Shown here: in pieces, positions 21,731 through 30,371 of the stretch
Position numbering within the stretch: the stretch's first letter is position 1
Layout: each line of letters begins with the position of its first letter
Source: Oscillospiraceae bacterium
Lineage (GTDB): Bacteria; Bacillota; Clostridia; Oscillospirales; SIG530
NCBI GenBank assembly: GCA_015067075.1
Contig: SVND01000019.1
Span: forward strand, 1 to 45,351
Direction: 5' to 3'
Length of the DNA stretch: 45,351 nucleotides
Made by a program: the position numbers and the translations under genes
The notes under the pieces: model-generated
What the model saw: only the letters and a program-made list of their open reading frames with translations
Database searches by the model: none
Told to the model about the DNA's origin: nothing

Positions 21731-22114
21731 ATGTCGCTTAATTATAATGAGAAAAATATTACTCTTGCAAAAAATCTTCGCAAAAATGCAACGCCACAAG
21801 AAAATCATTTATGGTATGATTTTTTATCAAAATATGAAATTAGATTTCAGCGTCAAAAAGCAATAGATAATTTTATAGCAGATTTTTACTGTCACAAAGC
21901 AAAGCTCGTTATAGAAATTGACGGCTCACAGCACTTTACCGAAAAGGGTAGCCAAAAGGATGAATTTCGCACAGAAATCCTCGAAGGATATAACCTTAAA
22001 ATTATACGGTTTACAAATCATCAGGTTAATACAAATTTTCAAGGAGTATGTGAGTATATCGACTCCGTCGTAAAAGCCTTCCTCCGAGAGGAAGGTGGCA
22101 CGGCAAAGCCGTGA
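21731..22114 (+). CDS. DUF559 (Vsr-like restriction-endonuclease fold) protein
   Basis: The 127-residue protein has the DUF559 pattern: NLRKNATPQENHLWYDFLS, RFQRQKAIDNFIADFYC, LVIEIDGSQHF and GYNLKIIRFTNHQV. The FIADFYC...IEIDGSQH segment corresponds to the D...ExD/Q nuclease core related to very-short-patch-repair endonucleases. The cellular role of this family is not established. The last residues (AFLREEGGTAKP) are encoded by two back-to-back palindromes, so the repeat element starts inside the gene. Its low GC contrasts with the GC-rich palindromes. It has its own promoter and is probably an accessory gene. Confidence 0.85.
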   Translation: MSLNYNEKNITLAKNLRKNATPQENHLWYDFLSKYEIRFQRQKAIDNFIADFYCHKAKLVIEIDGSQHFTEKGSQKDEFRTEILEGYNLKIIRFTNHQVNTNFQGVCEYIDSVVKAFLREEGGTAKP

Positions 22115-22210
22115 CGGAAGGAGCTTTCGCAGCTAAAAAATATCAATTAGCTTAATTCAACCGCATTCTCCCTCAGTCAGCTTCGCTGACAGCTCCCTCC
22201 CGGAGGGAGC
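22077..22210 (+). repeat. Palindrome array overlapping the DUF559 3' end
   Basis: Four near-perfect stem-loops lie in 134 bp: CCTTCCTC-CGA-GAGGAAGG (22077-22095), CACGGC-AAA-GCCGTG (22099-22113), GTCAGC-TTC-GCTGAC (22176-22190) and GCTCCCTCC-C-GGAGGGAGC (22192-22210). The first two encode the C-terminus of the DUF559 protein, and its stop codon lies in the second stem. The block is GC-rich in an AT-rich neighbourhood, which suggests an interspersed REP-like or MITE-like repeat rather than ordinary coding sequence. Confidence 0.65.
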
Positions 22211-22324: not shown

Positions 22325-22480
22325 TCAATTATCTTTATACCAAGAATGATTACCATTTGCAGATTTTGGACACTTGCCCGTTGTTTGCTTTAAAGGTCTT
22401 GACGACCATCTAATACTTCTTCCGCAGTTTGTACATACATAACGTTCAGGTCCAGATATTTTTTTTACAGGTGTTCCCAT
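22325..22480 (-). CDS. Small zinc-ribbon-like protein (51 residues)
   Basis: This short gene starts at ATG 22480, with GGGAGG 9 nt upstream, and ends at TGA 22325. The product begins MGTPVKKISGPERYVCTNCG, then has RSIRWSSRPLKQTTGKCPKS and ANGNHSWYKDN. Cys16-x2-Cys19 and Cys37 with His45 could form a small zinc-binding knuckle. I do not recognise a family. It lies 30 nt after the 78-residue gene, shares its transcript, and is followed by a bidirectional terminator. The good ribosome binding site and the Cys pattern argue that it is real. Confidence 0.7.
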   Translation of the reverse strand: MGTPVKKISGPERYVCTNCGRSIRWSSRPLKQTTGKCPKSANGNHSWYKDN

Positions 22481-22510: not shown

Positions 22511-22747
22511 TCAGTTTTCGTCATACTCTTCGTCACAGTTTTCGTCATAGTCTTCCTCCTGCGGTCCTTCTAAATGCCACATGTTTCGAATTTCATTAAG
22601 GCTGTACTCTTTAGTCGCACCAAACAATTCAGTTCCGATTTCAAATCCAACAGTATCAGACATATCTTTGAGAATAGTTGATGCTGTTCCTGTCGCAACC
22701 AAAACGGCACTTGCACCTACCTTCAAAATTCCTTTGAATAGTCCCAT
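22511..22747 (-). CDS. Small protein with hydrophobic N-terminus and very acidic tail (78 residues)
   Basis: The start is ATG 22747 with GGAGG 8 nt upstream; a TTG in the Shine-Dalgarno itself is not a sensible start. The product reads MGLFKGILKVGASAVLVATG, then ASTILKDMSDTVGFEIGTEL, and ends in an acidic stretch (EEDYDENCDEEYDEN). The first 30 residues are a hydrophobic or amphipathic helix, so membrane association is possible. I know no family. Directly upstream stands an intrinsic terminator whose U-tract almost touches the ribosome binding site, so the gene can only be expressed by read-through. It is paired with the zinc-ribbon gene. Confidence 0.65.
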   Translation of the reverse strand: MGLFKGILKVGASAVLVATGTASTILKDMSDTVGFEIGTELFGATKEYSLNEIRNMWHLEGPQEEDYDENCDEEYDEN

Positions 22748-22762
22748 TTTTCTTTCCTCCAA

Positions 22763-22797
22763 AATAAAAAAGTGCGTACAACCGAAGCTATACGCAC
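22763..22797 (-). terminator. Intrinsic terminator or attenuator just before the small-gene ribosome binding site
   Basis: On the minus strand GTGCGTATAGC and GTTGTACGCAC (22797-22787 with 22782-22772) form an 11-bp stem, including two G-U pairs, capped by UUCG, then UUUUUU-A-UUUU. GGAGG of the next gene (22760-22756) follows at once, leaving no room for a promoter in between. Either this is a regulated attenuator or the end of a separate small RNA with read-through. Confidence 0.75.
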
Positions 22798-22972
22798 CGA
22801 AAAACGCAAACTCCGATTGCTGCTACACAAACTGAAGTTAGAATTAGGGCATCTCTACCATAATCACTTCATGGAATTTGCGCTTTTACCAAAGCCTAAA
22901 AATGATTATGGCAAAAAAAGGTATAATTATTCCCTAAAGAAAAAAGATACCGCCATTCTAACTATTCAGTTT
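22798..22972 (-). ncRNA. Structured leader RNA or small RNA upstream of the two small genes
   Basis: On the minus strand, from a predicted start near 22970, I can draw P1 (22977-22965 with 22836-22824, 13 bp, extended by GTTAGAAT/ATTCTAAC), a small P2 (22951-22947 with 22924-22920) and P3 (22912-22900 with 22869-22857, 13 bp, two G-U). Inside the P3 loop is GCTTT-GGTA-AAAGC. A further 11-bp pairing (22883-22873 with 22814-22804, two G-U) links the P3 loop to sequence 3' of P1, a possible pseudoknot or alternative fold. In P3, this pairing and the terminator, every non-Watson-Crick pair is G-U on this strand and would be A-C on the other, which favours a minus-strand RNA. If transcription starts at 22970, the first bases of P1 are lost. 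No known class recognised; a 6S-like RNA or a TA-flanked MITE are alternatives. Confidence 0.5.
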
Positions 22973-22976
22973 GTGT

Positions 22977-23005
22977 ATCATAATCAGTAAAGCAATTTTT
23001 GTAAA
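22977..23005 (-). promoter_or_regulatory. Promoter of the structured leader and small-gene pair
   Basis: The minus strand reads TTTACA (23005-23000), a 17-nt spacer, then TATGAT (22982-22977). The predicted start site falls in the 5' arm of P1. From 23006 to 23158 I see AT-rich sequence without a gene. Confidence 0.55.
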
Positions 23006-26282: not shown

Positions 26283-29200
26283 TTATACTTGTGTAATCTT
26301 CTTAAGCACGGCGAGAATATCATTGATGTTAAACGAATCGTTACCGTCAACGTCATTCAGCGACGATACTTCTTCAGCATCTGATACCATCTTAAGCAGA
26401 CCGAGAACATCGTTGATATTTACCTGAAGGTCAAAGTTTACGTCACCGACATCAACCTGAACTATGGCATATACGCCGCCTTCTTCAGCCGTGAAGCTTA
26501 TTACGTTGCCAACAGATGCACGAGAAACAAGGGCAAATGTGGATGCTGCCATATCGATTTCATATGGAACAGGCGTGTATTCACCCGTCTCTGTGTTGAC
26601 CTTGTACATAGCTGTACGTTCTGCATCAAATTCTTCAGGCATAGGTACGCTGTAATTACCCGTCTGTTTGACATTGTATGCTACATTTTCCTTGCCCTTA
26701 AGCACAGTTGTTACAGAGCTTATTGTGTTTGAATCTGTTATTTCAGTAATATCTTCACTTACAAAAGCTCTGAGCTCGGGATAGGGATAATCAGGGTTGC
26801 CCTCCATCGTCCAGACCGTGTCAAAATCAAATCCGACAAAACTCGACTGCTGACACATTTCGGCATCGGTCAAAAGCGTACCGCCATATGTCATATCATC
26901 CGCCGCAGATGTATCGAGAATATAAACGTAGTTTACATCAACATTATTGTTCGTTTCATCAATTGCACCGATAGCAACATCCTTCGGCGTACCGTTTACT
27001 GTAACAGCACCAACGGAATAACATTTTTCGATAGTTGTCTTGTTTGCTTCTGTACCATAGCACTCTCCCACAATGCCGCCGACATTTGAACTACCGCTTA
27101 CATCTCCGCTGTTTTCACAGTTGCTTATTGTGCCACCACAATATCCCGCAATGCCGCCGACATCATAGCTACCGCTTACAGCACCGCTGTTTTCGCAGTT
27201 GCTTATTGTTATTGTGCCATAGCAATATCCCACAATGCCGCCGACATAATCATAGCTACCACTTACATCACCGCTGTTTGCACAGTCGCTTATTGTGCCA
27301 TAAAAGCAATATCCCGCAATGCCGCCGACATCATAGCCGCTACTACTTACATCGCCTCTGTTTACGCAGTTGCTTATTGTGCCATTATGGCAATATCCCA
27401 CAATGCCGCCGACACGATTGCCGCCACCGCTTACAGCACCGCTGTTTTCGCAGTTGGTTGCAAAACCACTACCCACAATGCCGCCGACAAATTCGCCGCT
27501 ACCGCTTACATTGCCGCTGTTTTCGCAGTTGGTTGCAAAACCACTACCCACAATGCCGCCGACATTATTGCCGCTACCGCTTACATTACCGCTGTTTTCG
27601 CAGTTGGTTGCACTACCACTACCCGCAATGCCGCCGACATAATCGCCGCTACCGCTTACAGCGCCGCTGTTTACGCAGTTGCTTATTGTGCCACTGCAAT
27701 CTCCCGCAATGCCGCCGACACGATAGCCGCTTACAGCACCGCCGTTTACACAATCGCTTATTGTGCCACCATCGTCGCAATATCCCACAATGCCGCCGAC
27801 ATAATTGCCACCGCGGATATAGGAATTTTCAATCGTTACGTTAGAAATTGTTCCGTCATAAACATATCCGAAAAGACCTTGATAATTTTCGTTTGTGTTA
27901 ATTAAAATACCGCTTATTGTATGTCCGTCGCCGTCGAAGCTTCCTTTAAAATTATTGGAGGAAGTACCTATCGGTGTCCATGACGTAATCTCGCCTGTAT
28001 ATGTACCGAGATATCCCTCATTTGTGCCGTCCGTTACCTTAACAAGCCCTGTATCAGGCATAAACTCGAAGGTTTCATCGTTGAGTATGATATCAGCACC
28101 AAGTTTATACGCTTTCGTCGAATAAAGCTCGCCGTCGGTATAGACCTCGCTTGTATTTACAAGTTCAGCCATTTTGAAAAGCTCTTCCGCCGTATATATC
28201 ACGAAAGGATCAGCTTCTGTACCCGTACCTTCCGTAAACGTCACACTCGGTGTGGGTGTTGCCGTGGGCGTGGGCGTTGCCGTGGGGGTCGGCGTTACAG
28301 GACCATTCCAATCGCCGTCAAACTCCACACCTATAAGCTCAGGGTACGGATAATCAGGATTACCATCCATCGTCCAGACTGTTTCGAAATCAAATCCCAC
28401 AAAGCTTGCCTGCTGACGCATCTCAGCATCGGTCAAAAGCGTGCCGCCGTAGGTAGTGTTATCTTCCGCCGATGTGTCGAGGATATAGATGTAGTCAACA
28501 TTGACATAGTCATTTGTGTTTATATATCCTATTGCACAATCTACGACTACGCCGTCTGCCGTAATCTTGCCTATCGTGTAACATGTTGCAATAGTTACTT
28601 CATCCCCTTCAATTCCGTAGCAATTTCCCACAATGCCACCAACACAGTAGCTATAGTGATCATTACCACCACCTACATCTCCTCTATTTAAGCAGTTACT
28701 TATTGTTGCACCAGCGTCACAACCTCCTGCAATTCCGCCGATAGAATAGTCACCGATTACATTGCCGATGTTTGTGCAGTTGGTTATTTCTCCATCGGCA
28801 CAATATCCTACAATGCCACCGACATCTTCGACGCCACTTATATTGCCGATGCTTGTGCAGTAGCTTATTGTTATACCTTCGCTGACTCCCGCAATTCCTC
28901 CAATTGTACTACTTCCGCTTATATCGCCACTATTGTTGCAGTTACTTATTGTAGTACCTCCACCACAAATTCCCACCATTCCGCCGATAGAATAGCCGCC
29001 GCTTACATTTCCGATGTTTGTGCAATTACTTATTGTTACATAATAGCACACTCCCACTATACCGCCGACCCCGTCACTACCGCTTATATTGCCGCTATTT
29101 GCGCAGTTGGTTATTTCTCCATCGGCACAATATCCTACAATGCCACCCGCCATGTATCTACTGCTTATATTGCCGCTATTTATGCAGTTGCTTATTGCTC

Positions 29201-30371
29201 CACCAAGACAATCTCCTACAATGCCACCGACCCTGTCACCACCGCTTATATTGCCACTATTGTTGCAGTTGCCTATTATGTTATATTCGCAAATTCCTAC
29301 TATGCCGCCTACATAATAGATTCCTCTTACATTACCATTGTTTGTACAGTCACTTATTGTAGTATCAATACAGCAGCCCACTATACCGCCGACATAGGTG
29401 TCACCGCTTACATTACCGATGTTTGTGCAATAGCTTATTGTAGTACCATTACACCAGCCCACAATACTACCAACAGCACCTTCCTCACCACTTACATCAC
29501 CATTGTTTGTGCAATTATTTATTGTAGTACCACTATCGCTCCAGCCTACAATACCACCGCTCCAGCCACCATTGCTAACATATCCGTTGTTTGCACAGTT
29601 GCTTATTGTTCCATCACAGCACCAACCAGCTATGCTGCCTACACAATAGTTTCCTCTTATATAAGAGCTTTCGATATTTACATTGGAAACTTCTCCACTA
29701 TCAACATATCCAAAAAGACCTTGGTTATTTTCACCAGTGTTGATATATACGCCACTCACCGTAAAATTCGCGCCGTCAAAGTTGCCTTTAAACTTCGCGT
29801 TCTCTTTTCCTATCGGCGTCCAAATATTAAGCGTGCCGTTATACGCACCTGCCGTCGTTGCCTCTTCGGATGCGTACCACTTTCCGCGTTCACTTGCAGT
29901 TTCGTCAAAAACTGTATTTTCGCCGCTACTGTCACCACATGTACCCGTTCCGAGATATGCAACATTCGTGCCATCCGTTACCTTGACAAGTCCTGTATCC
30001 GGCATAAACTCAAAGGTTTCGTCGTTGAGCATAATATCTGCGCCGAGCTTATATGCCTTTGTTGCATAGAGAGCACCGTCGATATCCTCCGCACCTGTGT
30101 TTACAAGCTCCGACAAAAGTGCAAGCTGCTCCGCTGTTTTGATAATATACGGATCAGCTTCCGTGCCGCTTCCGCTTTCGAAACTTTCAGCTACACTGCC
30201 GTCCCAGACATCGGCAGTATTTACGCTTGCCTTCGGTGCATCTGCCAAGACTTTTTCCGCCACAAGCTGGGCATCCGTTTCAAGCTCTTCCGCCATTACA
30301 TTTATGGGCAAGCAAGTAAGTATCATCATGATTGCCAAGAGCTTTGCAATAGTCTTCTTAAAAGATTCCAT
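26283..30371 (-). CDS. Giant secreted GLUG-repeat protein with dockerin-like C-terminus
   Basis: The 1362-residue protein starts at ATG 30371 with an AAGGGG Shine-Dalgarno and a signal peptide (residues 1-27, ending INVMAEE). It is built as two similar halves. Each begins with GTEADP.(I/F).(I)..TAE(Q/E)L and ADI(M/I)LNDETFEFMPDTG, then runs into short repeats of the type VGGIVGYC..GTISNC.NSG.VSG. I count about 13 units in the first half and 10 in the second. A TP-rich linker (PTPTATPTPTATPTPS) separates the halves. Near the end a non-repeated domain precedes a dockerin-like pair of segments (DVNFDLQVNINDVLGLLKMV and DVDGNDSFNINDILAVLKKI). Dockerins normally bind cohesins in cellulosome-type assemblies; no cohesin is encoded here. 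Function is likely surface adhesion or polysaccharide binding (inference). Confidence 0.85.
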   Translation of the reverse strand: MESFKKTIAKLLAIMMILTCLPINVMAEELETDAQLVAEKVLADAPKASVNTADVWDGSVAESFESGSGTEADPYIIKTAEQLALLSELVNTGAEDIDGALYATKAYKLGADIMLNDETFEFMPDTGLVKVTDGTNVAYLGTGTCGDSSGENTVFDETASERGKWYASEEATTAGAYNGTLNIWTPIGKENAKFKGNFDGANFTVSGVYINTGENNQGLFGYVDSGEVSNVNIESSYIRGNYCVGSIAGWCCDGTISNCANNGYVSNGGWSGGIVGWSDSGTTINNCTNNGDVSGEEGAVGSIVGWCNGTTISYCTNIGNVSGDTYVGGIVGCCIDTTISDCTNNGNVRGIYYVGGIVGICEYNIIGNCNNSGNISGGDRVGGIVGDCLGGAISNCINSGNISSRYMAGGIVGYCADGEITNCANSGNISGSDGVGGIVGVCYYVTISNCTNIGNVSGGYSIGGMVGICGGGTTISNCNNSGDISGSSTIGGIAGVSEGITISYCTSIGNISGVEDVGGIVGYCADGEITNCTNIGNVIGDYSIGGIAGGCDAGATISNCLNRGDVGGGNDHYSYCVGGIVGNCYGIEGDEVTIATCYTIGKITADGVVVDCAIGYINTNDYVNVDYIYILDTSAEDNTTYGGTLLTDAEMRQQASFVGFDFETVWTMDGNPDYPYPELIGVEFDGDWNGPVTPTPTATPTPTATPTPSVTFTEGTGTEADPFVIYTAEELFKMAELVNTSEVYTDGELYSTKAYKLGADIILNDETFEFMPDTGLVKVTDGTNEGYLGTYTGEITSWTPIGTSSNNFKGSFDGDGHTISGILINTNENYQGLFGYVYDGTISNVTIENSYIRGGNYVGGIVGYCDDGGTISDCVNGGAVSGYRVGGIAGDCSGTISNCVNSGAVSGSGDYVGGIAGSGSATNCENSGNVSGSGNNVGGIVGSGFATNCENSGNVSGSGEFVGGIVGSGFATNCENSGAVSGGGNRVGGIVGYCHNGTISNCVNRGDVSSSGYDVGGIAGYCFYGTISDCANSGDVSGSYDYVGGIVGYCYGTITISNCENSGAVSGSYDVGGIAGYCGGTISNCENSGDVSGSSNVGGIVGECYGTEANKTTIEKCYSVGAVTVNGTPKDVAIGAIDETNNNVDVNYVYILDTSAADDMTYGGTLLTDAEMCQQSSFVGFDFDTVWTMEGNPDYPYPELRAFVSEDITEITDSNTISSVTTVLKGKENVAYNVKQTGNYSVPMPEEFDAERTAMYKVNTETGEYTPVPYEIDMAASTFALVSRASVGNVISFTAEEGGVYAIVQVDVGDVNFDLQVNINDVLGLLKMVSDAEEVSSLNDVDGNDSFNINDILAVLKKITQV
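27050..27815 (-). repeat. GLUG tandem repeat block 2 (second half of the protein)
   Basis: About ten imperfect units of roughly 60-80 bp encode VGGI(V/A)G..., with the recurring plus-strand words AATGCCGCCGACA and CCGCTGTTTTCGCAGTTG. Three adjacent units (27440-27640) are almost identical at the DNA level (encoding VGGIVGSGFATNCENSGNVS), which suggests recent duplication. This is coding sequence, not a CRISPR. Confidence 0.85.
28610..29665 (-). repeat. GLUG tandem repeat block 1 (first half of the protein)
   Basis: About thirteen more diverged units of roughly 75-85 bp encode VGGIVG.C..(T/A)ISNC.N.GN(I/V)SG. The units differ more from each other than those of block 2, so this block appears older or under stronger diversification. 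Confidence 0.8.

Follow-up and report, generated by a model that had tools for sequence, protein, structure and literature searches.

A multicopy leader RNA family, apparently undescribed, with a covarying pseudoknot and predicted terminator and antiterminator folds in uncultured gut and rumen Clostridia

Architecture of the locus

The window considered here is the whole stretch of DNA that was analysed, positions 1 to 45,351 (45,351 nucleotides) of contig SVND01000019.1 from Oscillospiraceae bacterium GCA_015067075.1. On its minus strand, a structured element at 22980-22766 precedes two small genes, and the parts of the element and both genes are read from this strand. Gene 1 (22511-22747) encodes a 78-aa protein without a Pfam, NCBIfam or PHROGs family; in another genome a 56% identical homologue occurs without the leader, and leader and gene are therefore separate modules. 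Gene 2 (22325-22480) encodes a 51-aa protein with one CxxC and no significant family, its zinc-finger-like matches being weak and non-significant.

Three other features of the surrounding sequence may be recorded. A palindromic sequence, GCTGTCAGCGAAGCTGACTGAGGGAG, lies at 22168-22193, 3' of both small genes, and has two copies in the genome. Just past the two genes, 21731-22114 encodes a 127-aa DUF559 endonuclease-like protein (PF04480, 7.5e-28), and at 26283-30371 the minus strand encodes a 1362-aa protein rich in GLUG motifs, with a C-terminus that appears dockerin-like by eye.

The minus-strand RNA folds at -81.4 kcal/mol (z = -8.5), and none of 200 shuffled sequences folds as well. The plus strand folds more weakly, at -56.5 kcal/mol (z = -6.0), in agreement with an argument from G-U pairs, made in an initial annotation of the sequence, that the functional strand is the minus strand. 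The element is closed by P1, whose 5' arm (22955-22978) and 3' arm (22822-22844) are defined by the fold and by covariation among homologues; near its base, a C-G pair of the family is replaced by an A.G mismatch in the window copy. The P2 hairpin (22920-22951), recognized from the fold and from size classes, is found in the longer, type A members. The P3 hairpin (22857-22912), supported by the fold and by covariation, carries in its apical part both the P4 hairpin GCUUU-GGUA-AAAGC (22882-22895; fold and family-level pair counts) and the P3-loop strand AAAAGCGCAAAUUCC (22873-22887; energy and family covariation). The latter pairs with the linker in a pseudoknot of 15 bp, 22887-22873 with 22814-22800, at -20.6 kcal/mol. 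P4 and the pseudoknot strand have bases in common and are mutually exclusive.

The switching linker, GCAAUCGGAGUUUGCGUUUUU (22800-22820), has two possible partners, the P3 loop in the pseudoknot and the terminator 5' arm and loop in an antiterminator. By folding and coordinates, the antiterminator hairpin (22778-22820, 17 bp, -20.2 kcal/mol) is incompatible with both the pseudoknot and the terminator. The intrinsic terminator (22766-22797), identified by sequence, folding and covariation, has an 11-bp stem, a UUCG loop and a U6 tract, with the hairpin at 22797-22772, the U tract at 22771-22766 and a stability of -15.5 kcal/mol. The GGAGG ribosome binding site, assigned by sequence, lies at 22756-22760 and is followed by an ATG start at 22747.

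The initial annotation had listed three helices, an 11-bp UUCG-capped terminator, a U-tract and GGAGG, all of which are present as described, and its possible pseudoknot is borne out as the 15-bp helix that joins the P3 loop to the linker. It had also held that no promoter fits between terminator and ribosome binding site, and this stands, since only 5 nt separate the U tract from GGAGG and leave no room for one. The antiterminator and the extent of the family had been missed.

A large family in uncultured Clostridia

The window sequence is a true member of a large leader-RNA family in uncultured gut and rumen Clostridia that appears to be undescribed. The model R1 was built from 28 short type B members (alignment A1), none of them from the window genome, and it matches the window, a type A member in a genome outside the training set, at E = 4.9e-14. 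Scanning the window genome (2.26 Mb in 85 contigs, 96% complete) with R1 revealed two further copies, on contigs C70 and C67, making three in total, the closest of them 71% identical to the window copy. A blastn search of 147 relatives gave a match in 54. A short sequence pattern applied to named genomes led to gut and rumen assemblies labelled Oscillospiraceae, Ruminococcus, Ruminiclostridium, Monoglobus and Clostridia; pattern matches from unrelated phyla did not show the structure and were excluded.

In all, 185 distinct elements were gathered, mostly from metagenome assemblies. Within the order, R1 identified 102 carriers among 295 genomes, and within the class 79 among 291; the only carrier in a sample of 398 genomes spanning the phylum was the window's own genome. 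The highest copy numbers, 29, 27 and 20, come from three genomes within one genus. Two size classes are seen, with about 100 nt (type B) or about 150 nt (type A) between the P1 arms, and the extra length of type A includes the P2 hairpin.

Among viral contigs, a first pattern found no match, and a second recovered one true element, L156, alongside what were mostly chance hits to phage genes. Good family members are present on two viral-labelled contigs (L231:2076-2231 and L156:6411-6578), and whether these reflect host contamination or prophage cargo is unresolved.

At gathering thresholds, Rfam 15 gave no match over the element in the window or at 20 homologous loci, and permissive Rfam scans returned only chance or sub-threshold matches. 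The 6S model RF00013 matched neither the element nor, at E 0.001, any part of the window genome; the same search was positive in 5 of 14 control genomes. Literature searches for the motif, sequence and gene set found no description, although an unnamed entry in the supplementary tables of PMC8040213, a human-microbiome RNA survey, remains possible. The leader class is apparently undescribed, and the restriction of the family to mostly uncultured lineages is a likely reason for its absence from the literature.

Covariation of the helices and the pseudoknot

The 105 distinct homologues show strong covariation. For P1, P3, the pseudoknot and the terminator together, 96.5% of cells are paired, with 530 double-change cells compared with 121 in shuffles, and in every control where the pairing was slid out of register it drops to 33-56%. 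Because the model used for alignment contained P1, P3, P4 and the terminator, counts for those helices are biased in that direction; the pseudoknot formed no part of that model. A tree-based null, in which substitutions were dropped again on the tree and the lowest attainable value was p = 0.003, gave this floor for the pairs tested in P1, P3 and the terminator. Against the same null, the pseudoknot pairs 198-292, 199-291 and 203-285 gave p = 0.003, 0.003 and 0.013, respectively. P1, P3, the pseudoknot and the terminator are supported by covariation, in part against a null that accounts for the tree. The initial annotation had named a lack of covariation in homologues as grounds for rejecting its structured leader, and that refutation is not met.

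P4 (A1 columns 44-52 with 63-70) and an extended pseudoknot (64-70 with 143-149) share a strand and are both retained in the family. The conservation of two pairings on one strand indicates two alternative folds.

These data bear on the possibility, also raised in the initial annotation, that the sequence is a MITE-like mobile repeat or gene-cassette element that folds by chance. Multiple and tandem copies, unrelated downstream genes and the inverted repeat formed by P1 would fit this view. Against it, the window genome has only three copies, and these are diverged (71% at best) with compensatory changes; both arms co-vary on the tree, and promoter, terminator and gene spacing are conserved. 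There is no plasmid match, and the phage-labelled records number just two, both unannotated. We regard a mobile repeat as very unlikely.

The antiterminator

When the pseudoknot is left out, the minimum-energy fold of the window contains the antiterminator instead of the terminator, with the linker paired to the terminator 5' arm and loop. A first test, which compared 8-nt terminator arms with swapped leaders, gave no signal, because the true partner (the loop and flanking arms) was left out and both sides are near-constant family-wide. Over 157 elements, the duplex between linker and terminator apex has a mean energy of -12.5 kcal/mol, compared with -6.3 for shuffled sequences. The fit of linker and apex within elements (-1956.6) exceeds that of permuted pairs (-1842.2, sd 16.3) by seven standard deviations, in a test without correction for relatedness. 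The six core antiterminator pairs are paired in about 95% of cells.

Free folding of linker plus terminator abolishes the terminator stem in 111 of 154 elements, as against 3.3% with shuffled linkers, and at least half of the stem is retained in the other 43; with the linker blocked in the way the pseudoknot would occupy it, all 154 form the terminator. Averaged over the family, the pseudoknot helix has an energy of -16.4 kcal/mol, the freely folded linker and terminator -19.0 and the terminator alone -14.8. In silico folding of growing transcripts of the window segment places formation of the antiterminator before completion of the terminator 3' arm. Compensated examples are also found. Copy L003, in the window genome, departs from the consensus in its linker (CAAGGC), its apex (GCUUUG) and its P3 loop (GCUUU), and both pairings are kept; several elements without a UNCG loop (L003, L033, L217, L226, L061 and L032) are still complementary to their own linkers.

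Tree-aware pairwise covariation of the antiterminator is weak, with 2 of 8 pairs at p < 0.05, in part because the linker is nearly invariant. The case for this hairpin consequently rests on complementarity, permutation and the compensated examples, and conservation of the UNCG loop could have another cause, namely stability. On the energy and permutation tests we consider the antiterminator likely, and the exclusive on and off structures of the expression platform are present in silico only.

Promoter and state of the window copy

In 148 of 179 copies the family -10 hexamer begins 11 nt before the element; it is a TG-extended -10 in 149, accompanied by a TTGA-like -35. In most tandem pairs the second element has its own promoter. 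The tandem elements themselves (L046, L202, L173 and L175) are about 50-150 nt apart, and often nothing follows the first except a ribosome binding site with a tiny ORF, of 6 codons in L046; this arrangement could represent a lost gene or the insertion of a new unit.

In the window copy, the family -10 position (22991-22986) reads TTTACT and no TATAAT is present. The initial annotation had proposed TTTACA-N17-TATGAT (22977-23005) as the promoter. Judged by the sequence, a seven-homologue alignment and the family promoter statistics, this promoter-like sequence exists and its role is uncertain, as its TATGAT is off the family position and overlaps the P1 5' arm, such that a start there would trim the first bases of P1. 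Given this degenerate promoter and its P1 mismatch, the window copy may be altered, through either a shifted start or partial decay. Its pseudoknot, antiterminator and terminator are intact.

Downstream genes

An ORF with a ribosome binding site lies 3' of 165 of the 180 elements (among 185) that have enough flank, within 40 nt in 123 cases. The genes are mutually unrelated and mostly encode secreted or surface proteins. In a simple scan, a signal or N-terminal membrane segment was found in 69% of downstream products of at least 100 aa, compared with 17% of control ORFs, the controls being other ORFs at the same loci; lipobox-like motifs occur in 26% and 5%, respectively. BspA-type leucine-rich repeats are present in 24 of 141 downstream proteins, and the remainder include zinc ribbons, copper amine oxidase N-domains, SLH, AbrB-like regulators, AMP-binding enzymes, many lipoproteins and small unknowns. 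The proposal that the attenuator controls two tiny genes therefore describes this locus only, other copies mostly preceding genes for secreted or surface proteins. As a separate observation, the gene behind copy L003 (L003:1556-1825) encodes a product whose first 63 residues are common to several phage protein families of varied lengths.

The arrangement of promoters and genes must be weighed against a rival in which the product is the terminated RNA itself, about 200 nt long, as either a multicopy trans-acting small RNA or a 6S-like RNA that binds polymerase, with the genes expressed by leaky read-through. In its favor are the promoter at nearly every copy, including the second of tandem pairs, together with a terminator; a CUC strand that could pair with ribosome binding sites; and the lack of an RF00013 match in the window genome. 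However, nearly all elements have a gene with a ribosome binding site behind them, mostly for exported products, and an antiterminator is hard to explain for a plain small RNA. The 6S alternative had been put forward in the initial annotation with an RF00013 search as a check, and that search gave no match. We consider this rival unlikely.

A second rival is a variant c-di-GMP-sensing riboswitch governing surface proteins, as the gene set (BspA-type LRR, lipoproteins, SLH) is like that of known c-di-GMP regulons. However, no GGDEF domain was found in 7 of 24 element-carrying genomes tested, the window genome among them (some assemblies are incomplete), and no Rfam c-di-GMP family, including RF01051 and RF01786, was matched. 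This too is very unlikely.

A model for attenuation

We suggest that the element is a switch acting in cis by transcription attenuation, of a class that appears to be undescribed; we consider this likely in the absence of expression, probing or binding data. The initial proposal, that the minus strand encodes an undescribed structured leader working as a riboswitch or attenuator, is supported by the lack of an Rfam match, the covariation and the antiterminator. Transcription would start at or near P1, with P1 and P3/P4 folding first. The linker, GCAAUCGGAGYNNUGCRUUUUU, would emerge next and find two exclusive partners. Pairing with the P3-loop strand AAAAYGCAnnCUCC would form the pseudoknot, leaving the terminator hairpin free to form and the gene off. 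When the pseudoknot is absent, for example when P4 retains its strand, the linker would instead pair with the terminator 5' arm and loop as the antiterminator, polymerase would read through and the ribosome binding site just beyond the U tract would be transcribed. The elements, their helices, the pseudoknot and their position before genes are shown by sequence comparison; a regulated choice between the folds is inferred.

Because the downstream genes are unrelated, a general cell-state signal is probable. We lean only slightly toward the pseudoknotted off state as the fold bound by this still unidentified signal. It is possible that the same attenuator responds to a protein (an antiterminator, RNA-binding regulator or polymerase-associated factor) and not to a small ligand, a variant that overlaps with our main explanation. 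One leader common to unrelated genes is regulon-like, and the near invariance of the linker also fits a protein trigger. Against this, the size, several helices, pseudoknot and bistability are closer to riboswitch aptamers than to short protein-binding hairpins, and no linked regulator gene was seen; a protein trigger is nevertheless not excluded.

A bolder form of the attenuation model would make the family a new riboswitch class responding to a general intracellular signal other than c-di-GMP and determining which proteins uncultured Clostridia of the gut and rumen secrete or display on their surface, with as many as 29 copies in a genome and one linker strand serving both pseudoknot and antiterminator. 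This falls slightly short of an even chance in our judgement. The regulon that the family marks in these uncultured bacteria comprises adhesin-like proteins, lipoproteins and uncharacterized small proteins. Orphan multicopy RNA switches before unrelated genes have led from several second messengers to their targets; a covariance model is now at hand for mapping the regulon, and ligand screening could address which signal controls the cell surface.

Comparison with known systems

The trpB motif (RF04312) is likewise a cis-regulatory leader with a terminator and antiterminator, but the only match to it is sub-threshold, scoring 21.2 bits where the gathering score is 59, and spans just the 3' half of a single member. 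6S RNA (RF00013) has a similar length of about 200 nt, a long closing helix and its own promoter, whereas the element has no match to its model, is multicopy, lies nearly always before genes and has a pseudoknot and an antiterminator. Leaders of type III toxin-antitoxin systems (ToxI and kin) have the same succession of promoter, pseudoknotted RNA, terminator, ribosome binding site and gene, but the genes downstream of the element are unrelated to each other. This candidate was rejected, as the window genes have no family and nothing ToxN-like appears among the 25 families found most often in 141 downstream proteins.

The c-di-GMP-I and -II riboswitches (RF01051, RF01786) occur in many copies per clostridial genome with a surface-protein regulon, and class II has a pseudoknot. 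The element shares these traits and differs in having no covariance-model match, and no GGDEF domain was found in its genome. It resembles in organization the riboswitches that work by terminator and antiterminator, which have their own promoter, a structured 5' leader, exclusive terminator and antiterminator folds and a gene directly after. In contrast to these, it has no known ligand and belongs to no Rfam aptamer class, its linker is common to pseudoknot and antiterminator, and up to 29 copies per genome precede unrelated genes. The riboswitch criterion of a complex, covarying structure in the 5' leader is met.
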